A stretch of 31,705 nt of DNA. It comes from a virus. The notes beneath the pieces were generated by a model. The model was not told the origin of the DNA, did no database searches, and saw only the letters and a program-made list of their open reading frames with translations. The translations under genes were made by a program, and so were the position numbers. Below, piece after piece: positions 816-25,576 of the stretch. Location of the stretch: the IMG/VR virus record IMGVR_UViG_3300034007_000012, positions 1-31,705 of that record. The stretch is one strand, 5' to 3'. How positions within the stretch are numbered: the stretch's first letter is position 1; each line of letters starts with the position of its first letter.

Positions 816-3800
816 GGGGTGGTCCTCACCAGGCGGTACCCCTGCGGGATCCTCACCACGGCGTCTCGCCTGCTGAGCCGCTCCAGCGCGTACCCGGTCT
901 CGGCGAGGACCTCACCCGTCTCGGTCACGAACTGGAGCTTGACGACATCGGGGCCGTCCTTCCGCTTGGTCTGATCGAGCGCCCGCTGCGAGTACTCCTC
1001 CACGCGGACCGGCTGAGTCTCCCGGCGCTCCCGCCGCGCGAACAGACTGCCGATGATGCCCCCCAGCACACCGATGCCGGCGCCCAGGAGCGGATTGCTC
1101 TGCGCCAGCGCGGCCTGGGCCATGTTGGCGAACCCGGTAATCACCACCTGCTCCATCTGCGCCGTGCCGGAGATCGCCGCCTGCACCATGCTGCCGAAGG
1201 CGTTCACCGCCACCACCCCTGCCTGCTCCAGGTCCCGGGAGCCGCGGCCGACGTCGCGCGCGAGCGTCTCCCACGTGTTGCCGCTGGCCTGGAGGATCGC
1301 CTCCACCGCGTCCCGGTCTGAGCCCCGGAGCTCTTTGGGATCGATCCGGTGGGCCACGAGCCCGGCGTGCTGGCGGAGGCCGTGCTGCTGATCGAGCGCC
1401 TGCTGCCGGTCCCTGGGGAGGCCCGTCGGATCGAGCTTCGCGATTCCCTGGTTCTGCTGGATGATCCGTGCGGGTACCGTGAACTCGTCGGGCACGAGGA
1501 ACGGTCCCAGCTCGCGCCGGCGGAGCGTCGACAGGTTGCCGCTCAGCGTGGCCACGTCTGCGGTGAGATCGCGCACCTCGCCGCGGAGCTGGAACACGCG
1601 CTCGTTCGCGTCCCTCCACCGGTCCGTCCCCCGGGGCAGCCCCCGAAGCGCCTCCTCGGCGAGTGCCAGGTCCGCGGTCAGCTTCCGCAGCTGCTCACTC
1701 GACTGGTTCCGCATCGCGGCGAGCTCGCGGACCAGCTCGCCGTCGAGCACCGTCTCCAGACGCGCGAACCCGTCCCGGAACCCGAGGGTCTGCACCGGCG
1801 CATCCCGTCGGCGCCGCCCGGTCGAGTCGTCCTCCAGGTCGATCGTGGGGCGCTTGGGCCCCGCCACCGCCACCGTGATCCCGGGAAGAGTGTTCCGGTT
1901 GGCGCGCTCCTCCTGAAGTCTCTGGGCTAGATCCTTCCAGGCGCGATACTCCGTGCGGAGCCCTTCAGCCTCGGTGCGCAGCTGCATGTACAGCGAATGG
2001 CCCGGGGCCCCCTCATTCCCGGCCCCCTGGTCGAAGAGTCGCTGGGCAGATCGCCGTTTCTCCTCGAACTCCGCATACTTCAGCCGCATCTGCTGATCGG
2101 CCTTCTCCGCGCTCACCACCACCGTGGCGGCGCCCATCTTCGGTACGCTGGCCTTGATCCTCTCCACCGCGTCCACCACCTCCTCCGCCGCCTCGGTGGC
2201 GTTGTCGGCCATCTCCGCGAAGAGCGCCGACATGGCAGCCAGACCGACGAGGAGCACGCCCCCCGTCGCCACGATGCCCCCAAGCCCGGCCGCCGCCCCC
2301 GCGAACCCTGCACCCCGACCGACAGCCGCCGCGGCGCCGCTGGCCGCTGTACCGACCCCGCCGATCGCGCCCGCCGCCCGCGTGGCCAGCGCCGCGGTCC
2401 CGCCCAGCGCGTTGCCCGCATTCAGCAGCAGTACGGCGGCGCGCAGCTCCACCACCATGGAGATGACGCCACCCAGACCAGCGATCATCGGGCCGGTGAT
2501 CACCACCAGGCCGGTGATCCCCATCACCGTCGCCTGGAGCGGCTCGGGCAGCTCGCCGAACGCCTCCACCATGTCACCCACGAGCACGATCACCGGCCGC
2601 GCCGCGTCCAGCAGCGTGACTAGGGCCGGGGCGACCTCGGCGCCGAGCTGCACCCCGAGCACCGCGAGCTCCGCCAGCGACTGCTTGATCTTGAAGCCGT
2701 CCGTCTGCGAGACGCGGGCGAAGGCCGCGTCCAGGATCCCGGTGGAGTTGGCGACGTTCTGAGCGATCTGGGCGAACTGCTCGCCCTGCAGCCCGGCGGT
2801 GCCCAGGACGCCGACGAGTCCCTCCACGTTGGGGATCACGCGCGCGAGGGCCGCCGTGTTTCCGTCCAAGGTGTTGATCAGGTCGAGCAGGCTCTGGGTC
2901 AGCCCCCTCTCCCGGATCTGCTCGCGCAGCTTAGCGGTGGAGAGATTGACCTTGCCGAGCACCGTCTCGACTTCCTTCGTCGGGTTGAGCAGCGTCTGGA
3001 GGTAGCTGCGCAGGGCCGTGACGGAGATCGAGGCGTCGCCGTTGACGCGGGTGAAGGCGGCGACGAACGCCCCCACCTCCTCGAACGACACGCCCATCGA
3101 GGCCGCAACCGGCAGAACCTGCCCCATCGACCCGGCGAGCTGGGAGACTTCGAAGTTCCCTTCCACTGCCGTGGCCAGCATGATCTCCGTCGCACGCGCC
3201 GCGTTCAGGTTCTCTTTCCCGTATGCCTGAACCGCAGCCGTGCTGGTGCGTGCGACCGTTCCCGTGTCCCCCAGGCCGATCGCCGAAGCCTTCGCCGCGG
3301 CATCGAGCACGTCCAGCGCCTCCGCCCCCCGCTCTCCGGCCGAGGTCACCACCAGGAGCCCCGCAGCCAGGTCCCCAGGGACCGCTGCGAGATCAGGGGC
3401 CATCCCCAGCAACTCGCTGCGCCACTGCTGCACCAACTCGACCGGGACGCCGGCGAGGGTCTCCATCTGCGTCATGGCCGTGTCGTAGTCGACGGCCATC
3501 TTCGTGGCCGCGGTGCCCACGGCGGCGATCGGCAGCGACACCTTCGTCGAGAGGTCGTTCCCGACGCGCTCCATGCGGTCCGCCACCCGCCCGAGCCGGT
3601 CGCCGAGGTCCTCCACGTCCTCGCCGGCTGCGCGCGCCTGGCGCGCGGCGGACCGCATGCCGTCGCCGGCGCCTTCGGCAGCCGCGCCGAGGGAGACGAA
3701 CCGGCCGCTCGCGTCGCGGAGTCGCCCCGTCGCCTCGGGGATCTCCTGGACGGCGGCGGCGCCCTCGTGCGCGGCGGTGCTGAGCTCGCCGATTTCGCGT

Positions 3801-4156
3801 GCGGCGGTCCCCGCTGCCTCTCGGCCGAGCTCGCGCACCGTCTCGCCCGCCTCCGCTGCCTGGCGCTCCAGCTGCGCGAGCTGCGCGGTGGGCACGGACG
3901 CAACGGCCGAGGTGAGGCTTCCCCCAGCGGCGACGGCCACGCCGCGCAGGTCCTGGAGCTCGCCGACGAGCCCCGAAACCTGGCGGGTGGCCGCCTCCAG
4001 CGCCGACGGATCGAACCCGCCGAGCGCGTCCCCAGCATCGCCCACGGCGCGGAGCTCCTGGGCACCGGCGCGCACCTCCTCGAACGCGCGCACGGCATCC
4101 GGAGCCCCGCGGGTCCTGATCTGTAGCTCGATCTCGTTGTGGGACGTCGCGCCCAT
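812..4156 (-). CDS. tail tape measure protein
   Basis: This 1114-residue protein is by far the longest in the window, as expected for a tape measure, which sets tail length and is ejected ahead of the DNA. The N-terminal 200 residues are Ala/Glu/Arg-rich helix with coiled-coil character. Residues about 215-480 match the PhageMin_Tail type of core ('KMAVDYDTAMTQMETLAGV', later 'SMGVSFEEVGAFVAAFTRV'). Hydrophobic segments lie near residues 540-660 and again close to the C-terminus ('GAGIGVLGGIIGSLFA'), as expected for membrane insertion during DNA entry. It begins with ATG at 4156, four bases after the end of the frameshifted chaperone frame, and its stop overlaps the next gene. The assignment is firm from length, domain and position. 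Confidence 0.95.
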   Translation of the reverse strand: MGATSHNEIELQIRTRGAPDAVRAFEEVRAGAQELRAVGDAGDALGGFDPSALEAATRQVSGLVGELQDLRGVAVAAGGSLTSAVASVPTAQLAQLERQAAEAGETVRELGREAAGTAAREIGELSTAAHEGAAAVQEIPEATGRLRDASGRFVSLGAAAEGAGDGMRSAARQARAAGEDVEDLGDRLGRVADRMERVGNDLSTKVSLPIAAVGTAATKMAVDYDTAMTQMETLAGVPVELVQQWRSELLGMAPDLAAVPGDLAAGLLVVTSAGERGAEALDVLDAAAKASAIGLGDTGTVARTSTAAVQAYGKENLNAARATEIMLATAVEGNFEVSQLAGSMGQVLPVAASMGVSFEEVGAFVAAFTRVNGDASISVTALRSYLQTLLNPTKEVETVLGKVNLSTAKLREQIRERGLTQSLLDLINTLDGNTAALARVIPNVEGLVGVLGTAGLQGEQFAQIAQNVANSTGILDAAFARVSQTDGFKIKQSLAELAVLGVQLGAEVAPALVTLLDAARPVIVLVGDMVEAFGELPEPLQATVMGITGLVVITGPMIAGLGGVISMVVELRAAVLLLNAGNALGGTAALATRAAGAIGGVGTAASGAAAAVGRGAGFAGAAAGLGGIVATGGVLLVGLAAMSALFAEMADNATEAAEEVVDAVERIKASVPKMGAATVVVSAEKADQQMRLKYAEFEEKRRSAQRLFDQGAGNEGAPGHSLYMQLRTEAEGLRTEYRAWKDLAQRLQEERANRNTLPGITVAVAGPKRPTIDLEDDSTGRRRRDAPVQTLGFRDGFARLETVLDGELVRELAAMRNQSSEQLRKLTADLALAEEALRGLPRGTDRWRDANERVFQLRGEVRDLTADVATLSGNLSTLRRRELGPFLVPDEFTVPARIIQQNQGIAKLDPTGLPRDRQQALDQQHGLRQHAGLVAHRIDPKELRGSDRDAVEAILQASGNTWETLARDVGRGSRDLEQAGVVAVNAFGSMVQAAISGTAQMEQVVITGFANMAQAALAQSNPLLGAGIGVLGGIIGSLFARRERRETQPVRVEEYSQRALDQTKRKDGPDVVKLQFVTETGEVLAETGYALERLSRRDAVVRIPQGYRLVRTTP

Positions 4157-4159
4157 CGA

Positions 4160-4731
4160 TCAGGTCTCCAGGTGGAGCGCGCGCTCCGCCTCCAGGGAGT
4201 TCTTCAGCAAGATCATCGACTCCTCCCATGCGGGATCCAGCTGATCCAGAGGGAGGCCGAGATCCTGGGGCGTCTTCCCCCAGATCTCCAGGAACGTGAA
4301 GCTGCGCACCAGACGGCGCAGGCGCGGGCTCAGCCCGGCGAGGGCGTCTCCTCCGTGAAAGAGGACGGCGCCTGCGCTGCGGAGTTTCCCCGTTCCGTCT
4401 CCGACAGCCCCATTGAGAAGCGGATCAGCCGCGCGATCGCCACCGCCCGCCAGGGCTGCGGGATCCGGCGCACGTGCTCGGGGTTAGTGGGATCTAACGC
4501 CCCTCCCTCGGCCAGCTGGACGCCCTCCGCCCGGCGGAACCGGTCCTCGAACAGGCCGGGAACTCGGGAGCCGCGGAACACGAGGCGCGCGTCATCGCCC
4601 TCGCCCTGGAGGTCGGCCGTCTCGTTGATCACCAGGTACTGCTCGTCGGTGAGCGGCTCCATGTAGAGCGTGACCTTTCCACCCGAGATCTCCACGGGCA
4701 GCTCGGTGGGGCGCCTCGGCAGTTCGACCAT
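4160..4731 (-). CDS. tail assembly chaperone, -1 frameshift form (GT-like)
   Basis: If ribosomes shift -1 at 4390-4384, the reading frame continues to a TGA at 4160-4162, giving about 190 residues. The added tail is good protein sequence: 'FTFLEIWGKTPQDLGLPLDQ', then 'DPAWEESMILLKNSLEAERA'. A short helix, a 'W-K-TP--L' segment and an acidic helix are typical of T-domains that bind the tape measure. This tail has no good start of its own, and its stop lies three bases before the tape-measure ATG. The zero-frame alternatives over 4157-4330 are Gly/Pro-rich and not protein-like. Frameshifting is inferred from the heptamer, the open -1 frame and gene order. Confidence 0.8.
4330..4731 (-). CDS. 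tail assembly chaperone, short form (G-like)
   Basis: The zero-frame product has 133 residues. It is acidic, with an N-terminal beta-rich part ('PVEISGGKVTLYMEPLTDEQY') and a helical part ('AIARLIRFSMGLSETE'). Its place between the tail tube and tape measure genes is that of the lambda G / HK97 gp13 chaperones, which coat the tape measure during tube assembly. The last 18 codons lie after a GGGAAAC heptamer, where a fraction of ribosomes should shift to the -1 frame and make the longer form. The start is ATG at 4731, with a GAGGAG about ten bases upstream. Family assignment rests on synteny and the frameshift, not on recognised sequence motifs. Confidence 0.8.
   Translation of the reverse strand: MVELPRRPTELPVEISGGKVTLYMEPLTDEQYLVINETADLQGEGDDARLVFRGSRVPGLFEDRFRRAEGVQLAEGGALDPTNPEHVRRIPQPWRAVAIARLIRFSMGLSETERGNSAAQAPSSFTEETPSPG
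4384..4390 (-). promoter_or_regulatory. programmed -1 ribosomal frameshift site GGGAAAC
   Basis: Read on the minus strand, the zero-frame codons are CGG GGA AAC TCC, so the heptamer fits the X XXY YYZ rule (G GGA AAC slipping to GGG AAA). Lambda G/T uses the near-identical GGGAAAG. A Shine-Dalgarno-like GGAG lies about eleven bases upstream. Downstream, TCCTC-TTTCACG-GAGGA can pair, flanked by GGCG/CGCC, and may act as a stimulatory hairpin. Confidence 0.8.
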
Positions 4732-4788: not shown

Positions 4789-5760
4789 TCAGTCGAAGGT
4801 GAGCGTGACGGCGGGGTCGGGGTCGGCGTGGTGCATCGCCAGCTGGATCCCCAGCATCGCGTGCCCGCTCTGGTCCTCCGGCGGGACCTTCAGGATCCGC
4901 GCGGCCGGCCCGGCGATGGTGAGCCGGTTGTACTGCGACCCGCCGATGGCGTGCTCCCATGCGAACAGGGTCCCCGCGGCGTGGATCGCCCACGGGTTCC
5001 AGACCGCCTTGGTCGGGCTGTCGATCTGGACCTTCGCGGTGGGGTCGTACCCCATGATGTCGTAGCCCGCGTGACCGCCCGGCGTCCCGCCGCGCGGCTT
5101 GGCGGGGAGCTCCGTGTTGAACTCCAGCGTGAAGCTGCCGGACGGCGCGCCGTAGGTGCCGAGCGTGACCACCTGGTCGGACACCGGGGGCTTCACGTTG
5201 CGGCCCGCGTAGACGATCGCCGGCAGCGCCACGTCGGTGGGGTCCTCCAGGAGCAGCCCCATCACCTCGAACCGGGCGATGCAGATGCGTGCCGGAATCG
5301 AGGTGAGGGAAACGAGGCGTCCGCGGCAGCCGACCACCTTGAACAGCGACCCCGCGCTGTAGGCGTAGAGGGTCGCCGACTCGTGGGCCTCGTCGATCGG
5401 CACGTAGGTGATCGACTCCGACGTCGCCGTCGCGTCGACCGTCGCCTGGAAGCCGGCGATCCGGAGTAGGACGTCCATCTCCGGACGGGTGGCCGCGGCG
5501 TAGGCGGCGCCGGCCCCCTTCACCCCCACGGTGAGGGTGAGCTTGGCGAAGCGGCCGCTGGGCTGCGCCGAGGCATGGCGACCCATCCGGGCGCCGGCGA
5601 CGTCCTTGCGTTCGTTCTGCTCCAGGTGGTCGACGTCGATGTTCGACCAGATGTGCTCCTCCAGCTGGATCCCGTTGGTGCCGGGGACCGGCAACGAGTC
5701 GGTGCCGTATTCCGTCTCGATCTTGGCCAGCAGCCCGGTCAGGCGGACGCGCTTCGACAT
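4789..5760 (-). CDS. major tail tube protein
   Basis: The product has 323 residues. It opens with 'MSKRVRLTGLLAKIETEYGT', a start typical of siphophage tube subunits, which describe the protein's first strand and 'a-ET-yGTd' segment. The remainder is beta-rich, with repeated Gly/Ser/Thr strands and a C-terminal 'PAVTLTFD'. The gene sits directly before the G/GT chaperone and tape measure, the usual tube-chaperone-ruler order. No sheath gene accompanies it, so the tail should be non-contractile. The ATG at 5760 follows GAGGAG, and the gap to the upstream 81-residue gene is three bases. The assignment is from sequence style plus context; a fused Ig-like C-terminal domain is possible given the length. 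Confidence 0.85.
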   Translation of the reverse strand: MSKRVRLTGLLAKIETEYGTDSLPVPGTNGIQLEEHIWSNIDVDHLEQNERKDVAGARMGRHASAQPSGRFAKLTLTVGVKGAGAAYAAATRPEMDVLLRIAGFQATVDATATSESITYVPIDEAHESATLYAYSAGSLFKVVGCRGRLVSLTSIPARICIARFEVMGLLLEDPTDVALPAIVYAGRNVKPPVSDQVVTLGTYGAPSGSFTLEFNTELPAKPRGGTPGGHAGYDIMGYDPTAKVQIDSPTKAVWNPWAIHAAGTLFAWEHAIGGSQYNRLTIAGPAARILKVPPEDQSGHAMLGIQLAMHHADPDPAVTLTFD

Positions 5761-6019: not shown

Positions 6020-6463
6020 TCAGAGATCCTGGAAGTAGAAGTCCAGGGTGAGCTCCAGCTCACCCACGTGGCAGAGAACGCCGCCGAACGTGCGGGGCTC
6101 GATCGAGACGAGCTTGAGTGCCCCCTGCACCGAGCCGTGCACCAGGTCCGGCTCGTCGCGGAAGAGGCGGATCGCGGCGTCCACCTGCTCCTGAATCGCG
6201 AAGTCGCTCTCCTCCGCGTCGTTGATCCCGAGAAGCTTGTGGAGGACGTAGGTCTCCGCCCACCGGGTGCTCCGCTCCGGCGTCTGCCCGGGCCCGCGGC
6301 GGGTGACCTGCCACCCGTTCACGCGCTGGGACTCGGGATCGCGGAACAGGGCGATGTACCTGCCCCAGTCGCTGACCAGGCGAAGCCGGGCGTAGACGAA
6401 GCCTGCCCCCGCCAGGGTGGCCAGCTTCCCGGCGATCTCCTCCACGCGCTCGTGGTAGCTCAC
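6020..6463 (-). CDS. tail terminator-like protein (Mu gp37 role)
   Basis: A 147-residue alpha/beta protein starting with GTG at 6463, one base after the upstream stop. It begins 'SYHERVEEIAGKLATLAGAG' and ends with alternating strands ('GGVLCHVGELELTLDFYFQD'), the helix-then-strands plan of tail terminator and gpU-like proteins that cap the finished tail tube. The position between the HK97-gp10-like gene and the tube gene is where terminators usually lie. The call is mostly from position, size and fold impression. A minor neck protein is the alternative. Confidence 0.6.
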   Translation of the reverse strand: MSYHERVEEIAGKLATLAGAGFVYARLRLVSDWGRYIALFRDPESQRVNGWQVTRRGPGQTPERSTRWAETYVLHKLLGINDAEESDFAIQEQVDAAIRLFRDEPDLVHGSVQGALKLVSIEPRTFGGVLCHVGELELTLDFYFQDL

Positions 6464-6464
6464 G

Positions 6465-6983
6465 TCAGCGCCCCAGCTTCATGGTGATCTGCACGCCCGC
6501 CTTGTCGAAGATGCGCTGAAGGGTCGACACGTTCTGCTCCACGGCCTCCTCGAACATCCGGACCGGAGCGGTGCCCTTTTCACCGATCGAGCGGGCGATC
6601 ACGAACGCGAGGCGCTTCGACTCCTGGACGGAGAGCGGCCGCACATCGCCCGTGGCGTCCGTGTGACGGAGCTTCCTGCGCACCCAGAGCTCCAGCGCCT
6701 GCGGCGGCGGCATGGGCTGCCCCGGCCGGCGCCCGTCGTTGACCACGCGCACGTGGGCGATCGGCGACCCCAGCCGGCCGATCACGTCTCCCAGCGCCAC
6801 GCGCTCGACCGGGAGATCGGCGGCGATCGAGCCTCGCGCCACCTCCGTCACGCCGATCGGCGTGCGCGTCTTGACCTCCCGCTCCAAGAAGAGCAGCGCC
6901 TCGGTGACCGCAGCCTCCAGCGCCGGCGGGATGACGCCGCCGGGCTCCGGGAGACCCGGGCCCGCGACGGTGAGGGTGATCAC
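6465..6983 (-). CDS. HK97 gp10-like neck / tail completion protein
   Basis: The product has 172 residues. It has an N-terminal helix with 'LEREVKTRTPIGVTEVARGS', the 'L...vk..TP.~TG.L..S' signature of the HK97 gp10-like family, then 'GSPIAHVRVVNDGRRPGQPM', a strand and loop also typical of that family, and a helical C-terminal half. These proteins act at the head-tail joint, stopping or completing the connector. The GTG start at 6983 overlaps the upstream stop as GTGA. The family call is from visible motifs and the gene order connector, gp10-like, terminator, tube. Confidence 0.75.
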   Translation of the reverse strand: MITLTVAGPGLPEPGGVIPPALEAAVTEALLFLEREVKTRTPIGVTEVARGSIAADLPVERVALGDVIGRLGSPIAHVRVVNDGRRPGQPMPPPQALELWVRRKLRHTDATGDVRPLSVQESKRLAFVIARSIGEKGTAPVRMFEEAVEQNVSTLQRIFDKAGVQITMKLGR

Positions 6984-7636
6984 CGCTGGCGGTGCGTCAG
7001 GAGGAAGACGTCCTCGCCGTAGCTCACCTCGCCGCCGGCCGCCTGCACCTCGCCTTCCTCCAGGCTGCGGAAGGGCTCCGGTACCAGGCTCATGAAGCGC
7101 TTGGCGCGGTGCGCGTACTCGGCCCCCTTGCTCTTGTGGTCCACCGAGTCGGCGCCGATGGTCGAGTCGCCCTGGTTGGTGTAGTGCGAGGAGAGCTGCT
7201 CGCAGGCCAGGGAGGAGGCGATCAGGACCACGATGTCGTGGTCCGCGCTCGGGACGCTGGTGCTCGCCTCGGCGATGCTGTGCTCGCCGGTGACCGTCAG
7301 GCGAACCGTTTCGCCGACGGCCGGCGTGGAGCTCCGGAAGCGGAGCGCCGTTCCCTCCGGGGCGTCGTACAGCGTCCAGTCGAGCGAGTCCACCAGGACC
7401 GGCTCCCGCTGGCCAGCGGGGTACTCCACCTGCGCCACCGCCGCCGCGCCGGCGGGGAGGGCGTAGTCGAACCCGCCGTCGCCGGCGACATCCGCCACCC
7501 ATCGCCGCGGCCGCGCCCGGCCGTACCGCCTCACGGCCTCCTCCAGCACCTGGTCGTAGTCGCCGGGGGCGGCGAGCACGCCGGCGCCGTCGCGCACGTT
7601 CCGGATGACTCGGGGTCGGAGGAGTGAGAGGCTCAC
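6980..7636 (-). CDS. head-tail connector / adaptor-like protein
   Basis: The protein has 218 residues and begins with a GTG at 7636 that overlaps the upstream stop. It contains an early helix ('YDQVLEEAVRRYGRARPRRW'), a beta-rich middle ('LRFRSSTPAVGETVRLTVTG'), and a C-terminal helix pair ending in 'DSVDHKSKGAEYAHRAKRF'. This order (short helix, strands with 'P--GE', then a helix with 'SKG-EY---A') recurs in phage head-closure and adaptor proteins next to HK97-gp10-like genes. Position after the capsid and before the neck protein agrees. The call rests on pattern recognition without a named family. Confidence 0.65.
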   Translation of the reverse strand: MSLSLLRPRVIRNVRDGAGVLAAPGDYDQVLEEAVRRYGRARPRRWVADVAGDGGFDYALPAGAAAVAQVEYPAGQREPVLVDSLDWTLYDAPEGTALRFRSSTPAVGETVRLTVTGEHSIAEASTSVPSADHDIVVLIASSLACEQLSSHYTNQGDSTIGADSVDHKSKGAEYAHRAKRFMSLVPEPFRSLEEGEVQAAGGEVSYGEDVFLLTHRQR

Positions 7637-8723: not shown

Positions 8724-11105
8724 CTACGCGACCACCGACTTCACGGCCCCGCGGTAGTCGGTCACCGCGCCGCCGTACTCGTGGCGGATCTTGTACTGCA
8801 GCTTGTCCGCGGTGAACATCTGCCCGACGGTCGGGTTGTCGGCGAGGAAGAGCTCGGGCTCCTCCTGGCCGTTGAGGAACTTGATCTCCAGGACGTCCAC
8901 CTCGCTCGGGTTGGCGAAGACGCCCCAGTCGTTGGCGTCGGTGAGGAACGGGTTGACGATGATGTTCTCGGCCTTCTCCCCGAAGCGCTGGTACCAGGGG
9001 TTCGCGTCGTTGTTGGCCGACCCCGGCACCAGCTGGCTGTTGTTGAGGGCCAGCGCCGTCGGCTTCAGCTGGATCGGCACTGCCAGGATGTGGGGCGTGA
9101 GCCCCAGCTTCTCGCCGCTGGAGAGCTCCGTCTGGTTGAAGAGCGCGGCCTCGGCCGCGTCCAGGGCGCCGGCGGTGAGCGCCACGGAGAGCAGGTTCCC
9201 GTGCGCCACGGTGAACCAGGCCGTGGCGTCGTAGATGTTCGGGTTGTTCTTGAAGAACGACCACACGAACTTGGCGAACGTCCGCCGCGCGGCGCGCCCG
9301 AGGCGGCCCACCACCTTGGCGACGTGCCCGATGTCGTCGTTGATGATATGCCGGCGGGTGACGGTGACGATGTTCCCCTTCTGGCCCACCGAGTACGTCG
9401 CGGACTCGTCCCCGTAGGCCGCCAGCTCGGCGTAGTCGCCGCTCTCCGGGTCCACGTCGCTCAGGTCGCCGAAGTACCCGACGCGCACCGCCTCCTGGGT
9501 GCGGAAGTCGGTGGCGCTCCCGATGGTGCTGATCAGGCGGCGCTCCCCGTAGTCCACCTCCCGGTAGTCGCGGGCCATGCGCCGGTTGAGCGTGTTGGCC
9601 ACCACGCGGGGCAGGGTCGCGTTGGTGAACGCCTCCTGGAGCATCTCGCGCTGTGCGCTCTCGTGCAGGATCCCGGTCACGTCCGGGTCGTGCCCCAGGG
9701 TGATCTCGTTGTAGAGGGCCCGCAGCCCCAGCGGCCGGATCGTGCGCAGCTCCGCGTTCTCCGGCTCGATCCCACACGCGCGGTCGAACGCGGCCTGGAG
9801 CCGGTCCAGCCTCCCGACGCCGACCTGGACGTCCGTGCCGCTCCCACCCCCGGCCGCAGCGGCGCCAGCCCCCTGGGGGCGCGCGGGGTTCAGCCCGGCC
9901 AGGTACTCCCGCTCCCCGTCGATCGCCGCCTGGATCTGCGCCTCGGTGAGGACCTGGCCGTCCAGGCGCTCGCGGATGCGGCGCTGGGCGAGGTCCGGCA
10001 GGCGCGACTCCTGGAGGCGCTCGCGTACCAGCAGGCGGGTCTCCACGATCTCCGCCCGCGACGGCGCGGCGGTGGATCCGCCCGCACCGGCGCCGGCCTG
10101 GATGGGCTGGGTACCCGGCTCCTCGTCCCGCATCGCCTCCTGGAGCTCGGCGTCGGTGGCGATCGCCACCAGCTGCTCGCGCGTGACGTTCTCCCGGTCG
10201 ACCCCGGCGAGCGCGGTGGGGCGGCGGGACTCCAGGATGCGCACCAGGCGCAGCATCCACTTCGGCATCGAATCCTCCTCGTGAGGGTTGGCCGCGGCGG
10301 ACGCCACGAGCCGGGTGAACTTCCCGCCGGCGGCGGGCCTGAGAACCACGTCGACACTGAGCACCTGGCGGATCGACTCGACCAGCCGGGTCTGCTTTCC
10401 GTCCTGTGTGGCCTGGCGCACGGTGCCCCGCGCGTCGATCGAGAGGCCGAACAGGTCCCGCTTCCCGCGCCCCCACGCGTCCACCAGCTTCTTCCGCGTG
10501 GTCTCGCCGACTCCCTCCTGGAGGAAGTGGAGGCGGCCGCCCAGGGCGCCGCCGGCGCGGACGACGATCCCGTCGATCCACCCCGCCATCTGCCCCTGCG
10601 GCTTCTGCTCGGCGCTGGCCATGTGGCCGGTAGGGGAGTCGTCGAAGACGTACACGTGTGCCCCCTCGAACAGGGGCGCAGCCTCCCGGAGCGTCTCGGC
10701 CGGGTAGTAGAGCCCGTTCAGGCTCTGCCCGGGGGCGATGATGTCCACCTCCCACTCCAGCCCCGCGGGAGCGTCGCCCGAGGCCTCCACGAGGCGCGCC
10801 GCCGCGACGTTGAACGACTCCTGCATCCGCCGGTACTCGACCTCCACCCGCACCGCCTCGCCGAATTCCGGCCCGCCCTCGGCGTTGAGCGTGTAGGGAA
10901 CCTGGAGGAGCTGCTGCCCGCGGCGGACGATGGCGTGGTCCTCGAACACGTCCACCGGGATCCACCGCGAGCCGTCGTCCAGCTGGTTGCGGTTCCGCTC
11001 CCAGATCGCGTTCCGGACGACCTCCACTCGGCTCTCCAGGCTGACCGCCTCCTGGAGCCGGACGAGCTCGGCGCCGTGCAGCAGCGCGTGCAGCAGCCCG
11101 CGCAC
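8724..11105 (-). CDS. prohead protease - scaffold - major capsid fusion (Mu I/Z/T roles)
   Basis: This 793-residue protein joins three jobs. Residues about 110-275 form a prohead-type serine protease: His161 in 'SPTGHMAS', Ser222 in 'LFGLSIDARG', and the family ending 'SVDVVLRPAAGG'. Residues about 280-425 are charged helix with low-complexity Ala/Gly linkers, as in scaffolds. Residues about 430-793 form the major capsid subunit, with 'NIYDATAWFTVAHGNLLS' and 'NPWYQRFGEKAENIIVNPFL', resembling Mu gpT. An internal ATG at 10268 (Met280) has GAGGAGG five bases upstream and would give a 514-residue scaffold-capsid chain without protease. The GTG start at 11105 abuts the previous stop. Similar protease/capsid fusions are known in other phages. 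Confidence 0.85.
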   Translation of the reverse strand: MRGLLHALLHGAELVRLQEAVSLESRVEVVRNAIWERNRNQLDDGSRWIPVDVFEDHAIVRRGQQLLQVPYTLNAEGGPEFGEAVRVEVEYRRMQESFNVAAARLVEASGDAPAGLEWEVDIIAPGQSLNGLYYPAETLREAAPLFEGAHVYVFDDSPTGHMASAEQKPQGQMAGWIDGIVVRAGGALGGRLHFLQEGVGETTRKKLVDAWGRGKRDLFGLSIDARGTVRQATQDGKQTRLVESIRQVLSVDVVLRPAAGGKFTRLVASAAANPHEEDSMPKWMLRLVRILESRRPTALAGVDRENVTREQLVAIATDAELQEAMRDEEPGTQPIQAGAGAGGSTAAPSRAEIVETRLLVRERLQESRLPDLAQRRIRERLDGQVLTEAQIQAAIDGEREYLAGLNPARPQGAGAAAAGGGSGTDVQVGVGRLDRLQAAFDRACGIEPENAELRTIRPLGLRALYNEITLGHDPDVTGILHESAQREMLQEAFTNATLPRVVANTLNRRMARDYREVDYGERRLISTIGSATDFRTQEAVRVGYFGDLSDVDPESGDYAELAAYGDESATYSVGQKGNIVTVTRRHIINDDIGHVAKVVGRLGRAARRTFAKFVWSFFKNNPNIYDATAWFTVAHGNLLSVALTAGALDAAEAALFNQTELSSGEKLGLTPHILAVPIQLKPTALALNNSQLVPGSANNDANPWYQRFGEKAENIIVNPFLTDANDWGVFANPSEVDVLEIKFLNGQEEPELFLADNPTVGQMFTADKLQYKIRHEYGGAVTDYRGAVKSVVA

Positions 11106-20315: not shown

Positions 20316-20574
20316 CGGCTACACCTACATCTCCGCTGAGCGGGAGGCGGAGTTACGCGCCGTGCAGCTCGCTGCTGCTGGGACCTGCGGCAAGCTCACC
20401 GCGACCATCAGCATGAGCGGCGAACCCGCCCGCCGAATGGACAAGAAGAAGATCATCGCCCACGTGCGAGAGGTCGAGCAGAAGCTGCGTGCGAAGGTGT
20501 TCCCTCCCCGAGGCACATCCCAGATCGGCACCGTGGTGCCGGTCCCCCCCTGCGAAACACATGCAAATGCCTAA
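20308..20574 (+). CDS. unknown 88-residue early protein
   Basis: Begins with ATG at 20308 inside the end of the CII-like gene. The N-terminal half is helical with 'YTYISAEREAELRAVQLAAA'; the middle has a basic 'ARRMDKKKIIAHVREVEQKL' helix that could touch nucleic acid. Its stop lies 14 bases past the start of the next gene, so the three genes are coupled. The family is not recognised. Confidence 0.6.
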   Translation: MLDGYTYISAEREAELRAVQLAAAGTCGKLTATISMSGEPARRMDKKKIIAHVREVEQKLRAKVFPPRGTSQIGTVVPVPPCETHANA

Positions 20575-21457
20575 AGCCGACCGGCACCCGGTGCCAATTC
20601 CCACCACCGCCGCCGAGGCCGTCGCAGCGGCACACCACCTGGCTGGCGCCGTCGACGGCATTCGGATGATCGAGGAGTTCGGGCGCTACTCCCGGCTGCT
20701 CGTCGTTCAGCAGATCAAGGAGTTCGACGCCTACAAGGCACTCGGGCACACCTGGGACTCATTCTGCACGGAGCGCTTGAGGCAGTCCCGCCGCACGGTG
20801 GACGAGGACCTCCAGAACCTGGAGTTGTTCGGCCACGAGTTCCTGGAGGCGACGGACCGCCTCTCGATCGGGCGGCGCACGCTGCGGACGCTGCGCTCGC
20901 TCCCCGCAGATGAGCTGCCCCGCCTCCTCCCCGGCGGCCGGATGGAGATCGCCGGGGAGGTCTACCCGGTAGACGCGGAGCACAGCGAGGCGATCGCCGA
21001 AGCCGTCAAGGCTCTCGCCGGCCAGCTGAACTACACGCAGAACCGGCTGGAGGACGCCGAGTCGGCCGTGGAGGAGGTGCGCGGGCAGCTCGCGGAGAAG
21101 GAGCAGGAGGCCGAGGGGCTCCGGAACAAGCTGGCCGAGAAGCGCACCGTCGAGCGCGAGCAGGACCGCTACGCGCACCTCCAGGCCGCCGCGACGGGCG
21201 AGATCGGGCGCGGGATCCTGCTGGTGGCCAGCATCCTCGCGGAGCTGGGCCAGCGCTGCGAAAGGGAGATCCCCGACCGGGAGGAGGTGCTCCGCGCCGC
21301 CCGCGTGCTCCCGCCCCTCGTGAGCAACCTGCTCGACTTCGGCGCCGGGCGGAGGAAGTTCGGGGTCCCGCCCGAGGTGGAGGACCAGCTCGACCAGGAC
21401 GCCCTGGACGAGGTGGTCCGCGAACTCGCCACCGCCGACGAGGGTGGAGACGCCTAG
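20561..21457 (+). CDS. coiled-coil early protein
   Basis: The 298-residue protein has a helical N-terminal domain ('QQIKEFDAYKALGHTWDSFC', 'RLRQSRRTVDEDLQNLELFG') of the style seen in phage proteins that combine an HTH-like bundle with long helices, then a coiled coil at about residues 140-205 rich in Glu/Lys/Arg ('VEEVRGQLAEKEQEAEGLRN'), then a helical C-terminal domain. ATG at 20561 and another two codons later are both possible. It precedes the transposase gene. No catalytic motif is seen. A structural or chromosome-associated helper of transposition is a guess. Confidence 0.7.
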   Translation: MQMPKADRHPVPIPTTAAEAVAAAHHLAGAVDGIRMIEEFGRYSRLLVVQQIKEFDAYKALGHTWDSFCTERLRQSRRTVDEDLQNLELFGHEFLEATDRLSIGRRTLRTLRSLPADELPRLLPGGRMEIAGEVYPVDAEHSEAIAEAVKALAGQLNYTQNRLEDAESAVEEVRGQLAEKEQEAEGLRNKLAEKRTVEREQDRYAHLQAAATGEIGRGILLVASILAELGQRCEREIPDREEVLRAARVLPPLVSNLLDFGAGRRKFGVPPEVEDQLDQDALDEVVRELATADEGGDA

Positions 21458-21640: not shown

Positions 21641-23305
21641 ATGAGCCGCTCGAAAGCACTCTCCGCAGACACGATCCGCTCCCTCCAGGAGGAGGCGGCG
21701 CAGCTGCGGGCGCAGGGAACACCGATCCGGGGATGGGCGGCGGGGGCAGCCAAGCTGCTCGACGTCAGCCTGGACACGATCTACCGGGCCGTGAAGGAGG
21801 AGGTCTCCACCCGCAAGAAGCGGAGCGACGCGGGGAGCCTGCGGGCTATGGAGGCGGAGGTGCTCGCCGACATCGCTGCTTTCGTGGTCCAACACGACTT
21901 CCCGGTCGAGCTGGCGATCAACACGGTCAACACCCTCCGCGCCCGTGAGGGGCAACCCGAAATCGAGGTCCACAAGGAGACCGTGCTGCGGCACCTCCGG
22001 CAGCTCGGCGTCAGCCGGCGCGACAACGCCGAGGACCTCCGGGTGCACCGTCGGTGGGAGGCGCCCCGGCCGCTGTACCTGGTGCAGATGGACTCCACCG
22101 TCGCGGCAAGCTGGTACATCGACTCGGACGACACGATCGGCTACGAGTCGCCCGTCCAGCTGGGCAAGAACAAGGCAGGGAACGGGAAGCCCCGCATATG
22201 GATGCTCACCGTGGTGGACGACTACAGCCGCGTGAAGTGGGCCCGGTACTACTCCGGCAACAGCGCCCCCTTCTGGCTGGACATGCTGACGCGCGTAATG
22301 CGCAAGGGCGCGTTTGGGGAACCGGACGTATGGCCTGCCTACGGGGTGCCGGAGCGGCTGTACACCGACCAGGATGCGGCCATGAAGGCCCGCGAGTCCG
22401 TGTCGTTCCTGGCGGCGTTCGAAATCGAGCGGATGCTGGCGAACCCCAGCAACCCGCACTTCACGAATGCCCAGGCGAAGGGGAAGGTGGAGCGGGCACA
22501 GGGACACATCCTCCACTCGTTCGAGAAGGTCACGCGGGCGAAGCGGTTCGAGAGCCTGGAGGCGATGAACCGGGCCCTGAACACCTTCCTGATCACCATC
22601 AACAACGCCGTCCACTCCACCACGGGAAGGGCACCGTTCGAGCGCTGGCTGGAGGCCGCGCAGATCCGCGTGCTGCCCGAGGCGGAGATCGTCCGCCGTG
22701 TCTCGGCGCGGGTGGACGAGGCCTGGGTGAGCCCCGATCTGGCGATCCGCTTGGAGGGCAAGACGTACCAGCTCCCCAGGCGCGAGCCGTTCCTCGGGCT
22801 CGTGAAGAAGACGGTGAACATCCGCTACTACCGGGCGGACCTGTCGAGGATCACGGTGATCCTGGACGGGCAGGCGCACGAGATCGACGCAGTGGAGGCC
22901 GTCCCCGACGTCGCCGGCGAGTTCCACACCGCCCCCGTCACGCCCGCTGTCGAGGTCAAGAAGGCGCTCCTCGAACGCGACCTCTCCAGGTACGACGGCG
23001 CCGTACACGAGGTCTTCAACTACGTCGCCGAGAAGGACCCTCGCACCTACCCGATTCGCCCCAAGGAAGTCGAGCACCCGCTGACCGCGGCCGAGTTCGC
23101 CCCGGTGATGATCCGGCGCGGCAAGGCGGTGGAGCGGGCGCAGCGAGAGGGCGTCGTCTCCGTCCCTCCCACCGAGCTGGAGCGGGCGGTGATCGACGCG
23201 CTGATGGCCGGCCGTGGCGAGATCTCCGAATCCGAGCTCGCCACGTGGATCCAGTCCCGCCGGGCACCCGGCACCACCCCCCAGCTGCGCGCACACCGCG
23301 CGTAA
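21641..23305 (+). CDS. DDE transposase (MuA role)
   Basis: The 554-residue enzyme cuts and joins phage ends to new DNA sites, used for both integration and replication. Residues about 1-125 hold HTH parts ('AAGAAKLLDVSLDTIYRAVK', 'EIEVHKETVLRHLRQLGVSR'). The RNase H-like core has Asp151 in 'LVQMDSTVA', Asp243 in 'RLYTDQDAAMK' and Glu284 in 'AKGKVERAQGH'. The following beta-barrel domain ('LAIRLEGKTYQLPR') is like Mu-transpos_C, and the C-terminal 120 residues are helical and may contact the ATPase. It is shorter than MuA (663 residues) and closer to BcepMu-type or IS-type enzymes. Start ATG at 21641. The catalytic triad is intact. Confidence 0.95.
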   Translation: MSRSKALSADTIRSLQEEAAQLRAQGTPIRGWAAGAAKLLDVSLDTIYRAVKEEVSTRKKRSDAGSLRAMEAEVLADIAAFVVQHDFPVELAINTVNTLRAREGQPEIEVHKETVLRHLRQLGVSRRDNAEDLRVHRRWEAPRPLYLVQMDSTVAASWYIDSDDTIGYESPVQLGKNKAGNGKPRIWMLTVVDDYSRVKWARYYSGNSAPFWLDMLTRVMRKGAFGEPDVWPAYGVPERLYTDQDAAMKARESVSFLAAFEIERMLANPSNPHFTNAQAKGKVERAQGHILHSFEKVTRAKRFESLEAMNRALNTFLITINNAVHSTTGRAPFERWLEAAQIRVLPEAEIVRRVSARVDEAWVSPDLAIRLEGKTYQLPRREPFLGLVKKTVNIRYYRADLSRITVILDGQAHEIDAVEAVPDVAGEFHTAPVTPAVEVKKALLERDLSRYDGAVHEVFNYVAEKDPRTYPIRPKEVEHPLTAAEFAPVMIRRGKAVERAQREGVVSVPPTELERAVIDALMAGRGEISESELATWIQSRRAPGTTPQLRAHRA

Positions 23306-23317
23306 GGAGGCTCTCCC

Positions 23318-23803
23318 ATGCCCACTCCCGCCCCCATCACCTGGTTCCTGGACGAGGCGACCCTGCTCCACCGCCTGCAGGCGAGCGGCTTCCTGTGCCG
23401 CGCGACCGGCGACCTCCTCACCCTGCACACGGTCGTGCTCCCCGGTGGGGAGATCGTTTTCGCGCGGGTCGTCCAGGAGAGCACGGCGCAGACCTGGATG
23501 GAGACGCTGCGCCTGGCCCTCGACGCCAGCGGCAGCCAGCCGCGGCCCCACACGGTGGCCACCGACCGCGGTCGGGCTTTCTCCAGCGTGGACTTCCAGG
23601 ACTTCCTCTACCTGGAGCTGCTGGTGGATCACCGGGTCCGCACATCGGTCGGCGGCGCACACGCGGCCGAGCGGGCAGTGCTCCGGCTTCGCCAGCACCT
23701 CGATCACCAGTTGAGCCGCGTGGTGCTCCCGACTCTGGCCCTGGTCGCCGAGGAGGTTCCGATCCTGGTCGCTTCCCTGAACCCGCAGCCCGTGGAGGCC
23801 TGA
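23318..23803 (+). CDS. stand-alone DD(35)E integrase-core-like protein
   Basis: The 161-residue protein reads like a minimal rve integrase core: 'WFLDEATLL' with Asp12, 'LLTLHTVVLPGGEIVFARVV' as the central strands, 'TWMETLRLALDASG' as the helix, 'TVATDRGRAFSSVDFQDFL' with Asp83, and 'GGAHAAERAVLRLRQHLDHQ' with Glu118. Asp83 and Glu118 are 35 positions apart, the DD(35)E spacing. There is no HTH or C-terminal DNA-binding domain. AAGGAGG lies seven bases before ATG 23318, and the stop overlaps the next gene, so it is a maintained operon member and not debris. It could be a regulator or partner of the transposase, or a repurposed fold. No database check was possible. Confidence 0.6.
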   Translation: MPTPAPITWFLDEATLLHRLQASGFLCRATGDLLTLHTVVLPGGEIVFARVVQESTAQTWMETLRLALDASGSQPRPHTVATDRGRAFSSVDFQDFLYLELLVDHRVRTSVGGAHAAERAVLRLRQHLDHQLSRVVLPTLALVAEEVPILVASLNPQPVEA

Positions 23804-24150
23804 TGTCACAGCGGTCGCAGATCACCATCACCGGGGGCGACCCCGCAGTCCTCGCCCAGATCGGGCAGGTCGCATCGGCGGGAGGGGCGAGCGTGGTGGT
23901 CGTACAGCCTCCCGGTGCGACGTGCTCGGTGTTCAGCGGGCTCTTTCCCCCGGATCAGCTGAAGCCCGTGCGGGGGCTGGACGGGGAGATCTGCCCGGTC
24001 TGCCAGAGTTCCGCCGTTCGGCTTGTCGACCGGTTCGAGGACGCGGCGCGCACGCACTACCGGGAGTTCAAGGGGCAGCTGCCCCAGATGATCCGCGATC
24101 TCCGCGGTGGAGCCACGGAGCCCACGTTCTACCAAGGATTCGAGGGATGA
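23803..24150 (+). CDS. small protein with CPVC motif
   Basis: The 115-residue product begins with ATG overlapping the previous stop (TGATG). The N-terminal half alternates strand and helix ('DPAVLAQIGQVASAGGASVV'); the middle has 'LDGEICPVCQSSAVRLVDRF', one C-x2-C pair that may bind metal with help from a partner. A helical C-terminus follows. It lies between the DDE-like protein and the ATPase gene. Function unknown. Confidence 0.65.
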   Translation: MSQRSQITITGGDPAVLAQIGQVASAGGASVVVVQPPGATCSVFSGLFPPDQLKPVRGLDGEICPVCQSSAVRLVDRFEDAARTHYREFKGQLPQMIRDLRGGATEPTFYQGFEG

Positions 24151-24416
24151 GCCGATCGGTGACCGTGAACGCCGGGGGCAGGAAGGGCGAAGCGCCGCGG
24201 AGGCTGGCGGCCGCGATAGCCGGGGCAGTGGAGGGCGCGCGCTCGGGCGGCCTGCCCGAGGTGGTGCTCGACGTGATCGCGGCCACTGGGCAGGCAGCCA
24301 ACAAGCTGATCTGTCGCGCCCCCAAGGGGGCCGTGGTCCAGGTCCAGGCGTGCATCCAGGAGGACCCGATCAGCGGCTGGAGCGCCTCGGTGCTGGTCGA
24401 CGTCACGGCCGGGTAG
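24147..24416 (+). CDS. unknown 89-residue protein
   Basis: Starts with ATG overlapping the upstream stop (ATGA) and ends eleven bases before the ATPase gene. A basic N-terminus is followed by an Ala-rich helix and a beta-rich C-terminal part ('AVVQVQACIQEDPISGWSAS'). No motif is recognised. Coupling on both sides suggests a real member of the transposition operon. Confidence 0.6.
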   Translation: MSRSVTVNAGGRKGEAPRRLAAAIAGAVEGARSGGLPEVVLDVIAATGQAANKLICRAPKGAVVQVQACIQEDPISGWSASVLVDVTAG

Positions 24417-24427
24417 GGGGCGCTGCC

Positions 24428-25576
24428 ATGCCGTACCGCGCGCGGCGAATCCTGGAGGAGGCGGAGATCAGCCTTGGCGACCTGGCTGCCGCTTCGCGCC
24501 GCAACAAGAGCACCTGGAGCCGCTTTCTCCGGTGCCAGCTGGATCCGGAGCCGCCGGAGCTCCGGGGGATCGTGGAGGACGTGCTCCGGGAGCGCGTGCT
24601 CCCGGTCCCCGGTGATCTGTGGCGGATCGAGGCCACGGCCGAATTCAACGAGACGGAGGAGATCTCCATGCAGGCGATGACGCTCAGTGACCAGGCGCGG
24701 CAGGCGTTCCGCCTCTTCGTCGCGCCGTTCGACCCCGAGGCGATGATCGATCCCGCGGGAGGCGATCACCTGGACCGCCTGTACCTGCCCCCGCGCCACC
24801 TCTTCGTGGAGTTGCGCCTGAAGCAGGCGCTGACCAAGGCTGGGTTCGTCGCCGTGTACGGCGAGCCCGGCTCGGGCAAGACCACGCTCCTCCGGAAGGC
24901 GATCCGCGGGGCCGCCCTGGTCAAGCCGGTCGTTCAGGTGATGCCCGCCAACGTGGAGCGCCGGAAGCTCACGGCGATGCACATCGCCGCCGAGATCATC
25001 CGCCAGCTCAGCACGCACGACGTGCCGCGCACCGCCAACCAGCGCGACGCGCTCGCGGCCGACGTGCTCCGAGAGCATTACCAGCAGGGGCACCGGGTGG
25101 CGCTGATCATCGACGAGTCGCACGAGCTGCCCACCGACACCATCAAGGATCTGAAGCGGTTCCACGAGCTGGGCGACGGCCTGTTCCGGCTCCTGGCGAT
25201 CGTGTTGGTCGGCCAGACGGAACTCCAGCAGCGGTTCGAGCTCGCGCGCAACCACCGCCTGCGGGAGGCGATCATCCGCTGCGAGCTGCTCCACCTGCCG
25301 CCGATGAAGGAACGCGGCGCGGTGCGGGCCTACATGGAGACCCGCTTCGGGTGGATCGGCGCGCAGCTGGAGGACTCGTGGGAACCGGCCGCGGTGGACG
25401 AGCTGGAGCGGCGCCTCGCCGTGCATGACCAGCAGCTCCCCGTGCTGATCGGCAACCTGGCCAACGCGGCCATGAACGCCGCGTACCGGCGCGGCAACCC
25501 CCGCGTCACGCCGGACGAAGTGGCCGACGTCTGGGGCGCCTCCGCCGCGGACCTCCAGGAGTGGGGCCTCTCGTGA
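24428..25576 (+). CDS. ExeA-type AAA ATPase (MuB role, target selection)
   Basis: The 382-residue protein has an N-terminal HTH (about residues 12-35, 'EISLGDLAAASRRNKSTWSR') and an AAA module: a 'FRLFVAPFDPEAM' entry typical of ExeA/GspA-like ATPases, Walker A 'YGEPGSGKTT' (144-153), Walker B 'VALIIDESHEL' (224-234), then sensor segments 'LLAIVLVGQTELQQRF'. MuB-type ATPases bind target DNA, give target immunity and stimulate the transposase; as I recall, BcepMu uses an ExeA-like protein in that role. ATG at 24428 was chosen with AGGGGG upstream; a later ATG (Met81) would drop the HTH. The stop overlaps the next gene as GTGA. Confidence 0.9.
   Translation: MPYRARRILEEAEISLGDLAAASRRNKSTWSRFLRCQLDPEPPELRGIVEDVLRERVLPVPGDLWRIEATAEFNETEEISMQAMTLSDQARQAFRLFVAPFDPEAMIDPAGGDHLDRLYLPPRHLFVELRLKQALTKAGFVAVYGEPGSGKTTLLRKAIRGAALVKPVVQVMPANVERRKLTAMHIAAEIIRQLSTHDVPRTANQRDALAADVLREHYQQGHRVALIIDESHELPTDTIKDLKRFHELGDGLFRLLAIVLVGQTELQQRFELARNHRLREAIIRCELLHLPPMKERGAVRAYMETRFGWIGAQLEDSWEPAAVDELERRLAVHDQQLPVLIGNLANAAMNAAYRRGNPRVTPDEVADVWGASAADLQEWGLS

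Follow-up and report, generated by a model that had tools for sequence, protein, structure and literature searches.

A stand-alone predicted rve/RNase H-like core protein encoded beside the intact transposase of a B3-like transposable phage

Organization of the early transposition operon

The window analysed here is the whole stretch of 31,705 bases of an IMG/VR virus record (IMGVR_UViG_3300034007_000012, positions 1 to 31,705; G+C content 70%). It derives from a B3-like transposable phage whose relatives among named phages (25-35% identity) are also B3-like and have Pseudomonas, Stenotrophomonas and cyanobacteria as hosts; no relative was returned from genome contigs by a scan with the TnpA alignment. 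All of the window genes described in this section lie on the + strand. A conserved early gene related to phrog_4623 (20561..21457; E 6.8e-24) is located 5' of the transposase gene, and a gene for a protein of about 310 aa occupies the same position in the B3-type phages phiSHP3, PM105 and Ps59. The transposase gene itself (tnpA, 21641..23305) codes for a complete B3-type DDE transposase of 554 aa (phrog_310, E 7.5e-34; Pfam rve above cut-off). Its catalytic residues are D151, D243 and E284, and the corresponding D, D and E were present in all of the 173-174 related TnpA rows covering each column.

The gene under study follows tnpA directly (23318..23803; 161 aa). It starts with ATG and is preceded, 7 bases upstream, by an AGGAGG Shine-Dalgarno-like site (23305..23310) that overlaps the tnpA stop codon, and its own stop codon overlaps the ATG of the next gene (TGATG). 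Its GC content by codon position (0.76/0.46/0.91) resembles that of the neighbouring genes. The gene is confirmed as real, and it is a translationally coupled early gene of the phage. The product is a predicted stand-alone rve/RNase H-like core with D12, D83 and E118 at the putative catalytic places, an assignment based on Pfam rve, an IS481 transposase model, a homologue in a related phage and comparison of AF2 models with the PDB. The core begins at residue 8, and its last helix is followed by the C-terminal end of the protein. The N-terminal helix-turn-helix (HTH) domains that bind the phage ends are absent, as are the beta-barrel and C-terminal domain that follow the core in TnpA, and no barrel match was found in the window outside TnpA. 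The protein is referred to below as the core-only protein.

Two small genes come next, the first (23803..24150) coding for a CxxC-containing protein of 115 aa with same-place homologues in the related phages L168, L089 and L088 (35-40% identity), and the second (24147..24416) for a protein of 89 aa with homologues in L168 (43% identity) and L089 (36% identity). Besides the CxxC, the 115-aa protein has a conserved C-terminal F-x-G-Q..D-x-R-x-G..P-x-F-Y pattern; a convincing family match for it was not found. Phages of this lineage retain both small genes (23803-24416) between tnpA and tnpB; the two are not found in Mu or in B3-type phages. The tnpB gene (24428..25576) codes for an AAA ATPase/transposition target protein of 382 aa (phrog_296, E 1.7e-35), 43-55% identical to the TnpB proteins of the close relatives. 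The preliminary description had placed the core-only gene between a full DDE transposase and its ATPase. It does lie between tnpA and tnpB, but it does not adjoin tnpB, since the two small genes intervene.

As had been stated, Mu has no such gene, A (1328-3319) and B (3358-4296) being adjacent, and in the annotated B3-like relatives that were inspected B is likewise directly 3' of A. Across the loci having both genes, A adjoins B in 148 of 173 (some loci are duplicates), and no other rve-like gene was seen between A and B when the inserted ORFs listed for these 173 loci were gone through by eye.

Relationship to the rve superfamily

The core-only protein matched Pfam rve over residues 35-97 (E 1.3e-4, 22.6 bits) and its homologue in L168 (described below) over residues 22-99 (E 5.1e-6), both scoring below the Pfam gathering score of 32.6 bits. 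The IS481 transposase model NF033577 was the best NCBIfam match of both homologues, over the mid-core region (E 2e-4 to 3e-4, 20-21 bits), and covered residues 36-97 of the core-only protein (E 2.8e-4, 20.5 bits). By the cut-off of that model (224 bits) and the N-terminal HTH of the family, the core-only protein is not an IS481 transposase. A collinear profile match to the TnpA of the lineage was obtained (E 5e-4). An HMM of the TnpA core scored the core-only protein at 4.7 bits, no better than shuffled sequences, so that descent from TnpA would rest on indirect links. Searches of the PDB sequences with phmmer gave no match with the single protein and, with the pair, marginal integrase matches among others only.

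When the two family members were the only sequences supplied to AF2, the model was unusable (pLDDT 42.6), and its middle part had the order E34-40, E46-52, H57-70, E78-82. When rows of TnpA cores were added to the alignment, the model (pLDDT 77.4, pTM 0.72) had the element order of retroviral integrases and RNase H (E8-16, E34-40, E46-52, H57-70, E79-82, H91-101, E104-107, H113-142), the same order in the middle part as the poor model. The preliminary description had proposed a Foldseek check of the 161 residues; the predicted model proved RNase H-like and matched integrase cores and TnsB in the PDB (E 3e-6 to 1e-5), and it leans on the supplied TnpA rows, which were chosen because they are RNase H-like. 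VIA of the same model gave the ASV integrase core at Z 13.7 (133-135 residues aligned, rmsd 3.0, 16% identity). In this overlay the pair at which the alignment starts (2 to 54) would bring D12 to D64 if no gap intervenes, and the offset at the end (39 in 7jn3_B, 139 to 178) would bring E118 to E157. Membership of the core-only protein in the rve superfamily is well supported by profile matches and modelling, and the Pfam rve matches of the protein and its homologue make a chance explanation of the fold unlikely.

Catalytic acids and their spacing

D12, D83 and E118 fell into the catalytic columns of TnpA when the core-only family was included in an unguided alignment of 65 non-redundant TnpA cores, and again with 56. 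In the larger alignment the three columns held D in 68/68, D in 67/68 and E in 65/68 rows. The acids are where the preliminary description had put them, and the TD-G--F-S--F---L context that it had noted is present. The spacing given there as DD(35)E holds as a distance, Asp83 to Glu118 being +35; the customary notation counts the 34 residues in between and gives DD(34)E, whereas DD(35)E stands for +36. A spacing of +36 from the second Asp to the Glu was found in 148 of 173 related TnpA rows. The clade of the window TnpA (21641-23305) has +41 and not +36, by way of an insertion before N-A-Q-A-K-G-K-V-E.

Conservation of the three acids, which had been named as a test of the assignment, gave a mixed picture. 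The one known orthologue, that in L168, retains both Asp residues, but its Glu (in T-E-R, at +34) lines up only with a shifted gap, and the aligners favoured another placement; a more distant paralogue in the same phage has lost the second Asp. The core-only protein contains no lysine, compared with 10/174 in the TnpA core; the chance of this at the window average of 2.7% is about 0.012, and the L168 homologue is likewise free of lysine. The A-K-G-x-V-E stretch of the TnpAs of the clade is also absent from the core-only protein.

Relatives and detached transposase domains

Four close TnpA relatives were found: L089/L171 (53% identity), L168 (49-50%), L169 (about 46%) and L088/L170 (42-45%). 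The L169 contig ends inside TnpA. In L089 and L088 the tnpA gene is followed directly by the gene for the 115-aa protein and the core-only gene is absent, so it is present in two of the four phages with a readable site, the window phage and L168. The homologue (L168:8657-9130; IMG/VR record 3300035683_000204) codes for 157 aa, has the same place in the operon and is 35-39% identical to the core-only protein (E 2e-9 among the compared loci; E 2.7e-10 in a search of its own record). A scan of viral contigs with the two sequences returned the L168 record alone, and scans of viral and genome contigs with the single protein, together with tblastn in phages and plasmids, gave no credible homologue. 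The orthologues that the preliminary description had suggested seeking between A- and B-type genes amount to this one.

L168 has three tightly packed genes between tnpA and the gene for the 115-aa protein, the homologue being the first. The other two (L168:9135-10111) are also detached transposase-domain genes. The product of 9135-9836 (233 aa) is related to the core-only family in its first half (E 5e-4 to 5e-5), where W-L-L-D is kept, the second Asp is replaced by Ser and a clear Glu is absent, and its second half aligns with residues 359-423 of TnpA, the beta-barrel (E about 1e-6). The product of 9833-10111 (92 aa) is the barrel by itself. In L169, a protein of 241 aa encoded 5' of tnpA (6461-7186) carries a TnpA-type barrel at its C-terminal end (E 1.5e-9; Mu-transpos_C, E 0.0018) and an unrelated N-terminal part. 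The domain copies in L168 and L169 indicate that this lineage repeatedly carries transposase domains detached from the enzyme. Since the core-plus-barrel copy has the domain order and the barrel of TnpA, it ties the core-only family to TnpA and not to IS481-type elements. In L062 the C-terminal part of TnpA is in a separate ORF (4951-5736), which would reflect either a frameshift or the splitting of the transposase gene. Partial TnpA matches in L118 and L042 were checked and discarded.

Between the window phage and L168, the core-only proteins are 38.6% identical over 140 positions, the neighbouring small proteins 39.5% and 43.2%, TnpA 50% and TnpB 55%. The core-only gene and its small neighbours have diverged at similar rates, which argues that the core-only gene is maintained; such persistence would be unexpected of a functionless ORF.

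Proposed role and alternative explanations

That a core-only protein is encoded beside an intact transposase, as first described, is borne out by the profile matches, by the unforced alignment of the three acids and by the predicted fold. Such a gene beside a transposase gene is rare. The term 'integrase core' is absent from the accessible portion of a survey of Pseudomonas Mu-like phages (PMC4378225), and a description of such a gene was not found in the part of the literature covered.

With moderate confidence, on sequence and model evidence, we propose that the core-only protein arose as a paralogue of the TnpA catalytic domain, has since diverged and been stripped down, and is now retained as a transpososome partner or regulator that does not bind the phage ends. 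The core of the lineage's TnpA would have been duplicated, with the end-binding, barrel and C-terminal domains gone. The protein would be made from the early transposition operon along with TnpA and TnpB, would be unable to bind the phage ends alone, and may contact TnpA or the assembled transpososome. It could in this way tune transposition, most likely by restraining or stabilising it; a helper and an inhibitor both fit. In transpososomes of the MuA/TnsB type, some copies of one protein do the chemistry and others scaffold. The TnsB strand-transfer complex, whose architecture resembles that of the MuA transpososome, has two protomers with a competent active site and two that are structural (PMC9527255), and by analogy with the structural protomers a detached core is plausible as a scaffold or poison subunit. 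In a bolder and rather doubtful extension, the lineage would build a heteromeric transpososome in which, alongside full TnpA, separately encoded core-only, core-plus-barrel and barrel-only subunits take structural, non-catalytic places or gate catalysis.

The preliminary description had offered a transposase partner, an immunity or end-protection factor and a split-off catalytic subunit; of these, a role as partner or regulator of the transposase is still the most favoured. A split-off subunit is not supported, because TnpA is complete and has its own DDE residues, which makes the extra core a paralogue; a split of TnpA itself was rejected for the same completeness. We consider it unlikely that the protein acts in trans with TnpA as a catalytically active DDE nuclease or strand transferase, in a part like that of TnsA beside TnsB in Tn7, for example the cleavage of flanking host DNA or of the non-transferred strand. 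Two-nuclease transposases do exist in Tn7 and its relatives, the three acids are laid out as a catalytic triad and D12 and D83 are kept in L168. However, Glu118 is not securely conserved there, the next paralogue has lost its second Asp, the protein lacks lysines and the basic stretch that is conserved ahead of the Glu, and two close relatives manage without the gene. From the ambiguous Glu of the homologue, the missing lysines and A-K-G-x-V-E stretch and the L168 copy lacking an Asp, we read the family as one that may have drifted from catalysis, and the core-only protein is probably not an independent catalyst.

A protein acting against others, either a superinfection or competitor factor that poisons related transpososomes or a decoy for host defence, is also improbable. 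A dominant-negative subunit might be expected to take the form of a core lacking end-binding domains, and patchy presence among relatives suits an arms-race gene, but the location in the lytic transposition operon, and not on the repressor side, misfits a pure immunity gene. Decay is quite unlikely: a functionless remnant, whether of an IS481-like element or of a transposase duplicated in part, would account for the weak similarity, the narrow distribution and the dead and fragmentary sister copies in L168, but not for an intact ORF with a ribosome site, a coding GC pattern and overlapping stop and start codons, nor for a same-slot homologue conserved nearly as well as the small neighbours, which points to selection since the two phages parted. 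Least probable by far is a coincidental motif match in a protein that is not RNase H-like. The sub-threshold Pfam score and the unusable two-sequence model would allow it; against it stand the independent, stronger rve match of the L168 homologue, the two IS481 matches, the shared strand and helix order of the poor model and the strong fold match obtained with the richer alignment.

Detached transposase domains maintained as separate genes offer a natural test of whether the chemical and scaffolding roles can be split between proteins. Through the core-only gene one can also ask how such a phage keeps its own transposase in check or adjusts its activity; the product, if it is an inhibitor, would provide a small, naturally occurring regulator for a MuA-like transposase.

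Comparison with known systems

The closest comparison is with the TnpA of B3/JBD25-type phages (phrog_310, a MuA-like DDE transposase), with which the core-only protein shares the predicted RNase H-like core, the D-D-E order and the operon, and whose beta-barrel is carried by the sister copies in L168. It differs from TnpA in having no N-terminal end-binding domains, beta-barrel or C-terminal part, in the spacing of its acids (D-D 71 compared with about 92, D-E +35 compared with +36/+41), and in the absence of lysine and of A-K-G-x-V-E. It resembles the IS481 family (NF033577) in the mid-core match, but is without the HTH part and is not in an insertion sequence. The fold of the predicted model is that of the retroviral integrase core (ASV, HIV, HTLV); the core-only protein has neither the zinc-binding nor the C-terminal domain of those enzymes and is set in a phage operon. 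Inh of Tn5/IS50, likewise encoded next to a full enzyme, is a transposase derivative from which the end-binding part is missing; it arises from an internal start of the same gene, whereas the core-only protein is the product of a separate, diverged gene and its inhibition of transposition is a possibility. TnsA of Tn7 is a second protein beside a DDE transposase and an AAA ATPase, and has a restriction-endonuclease-like fold, in contrast to the predicted RNase H core of the protein described here.
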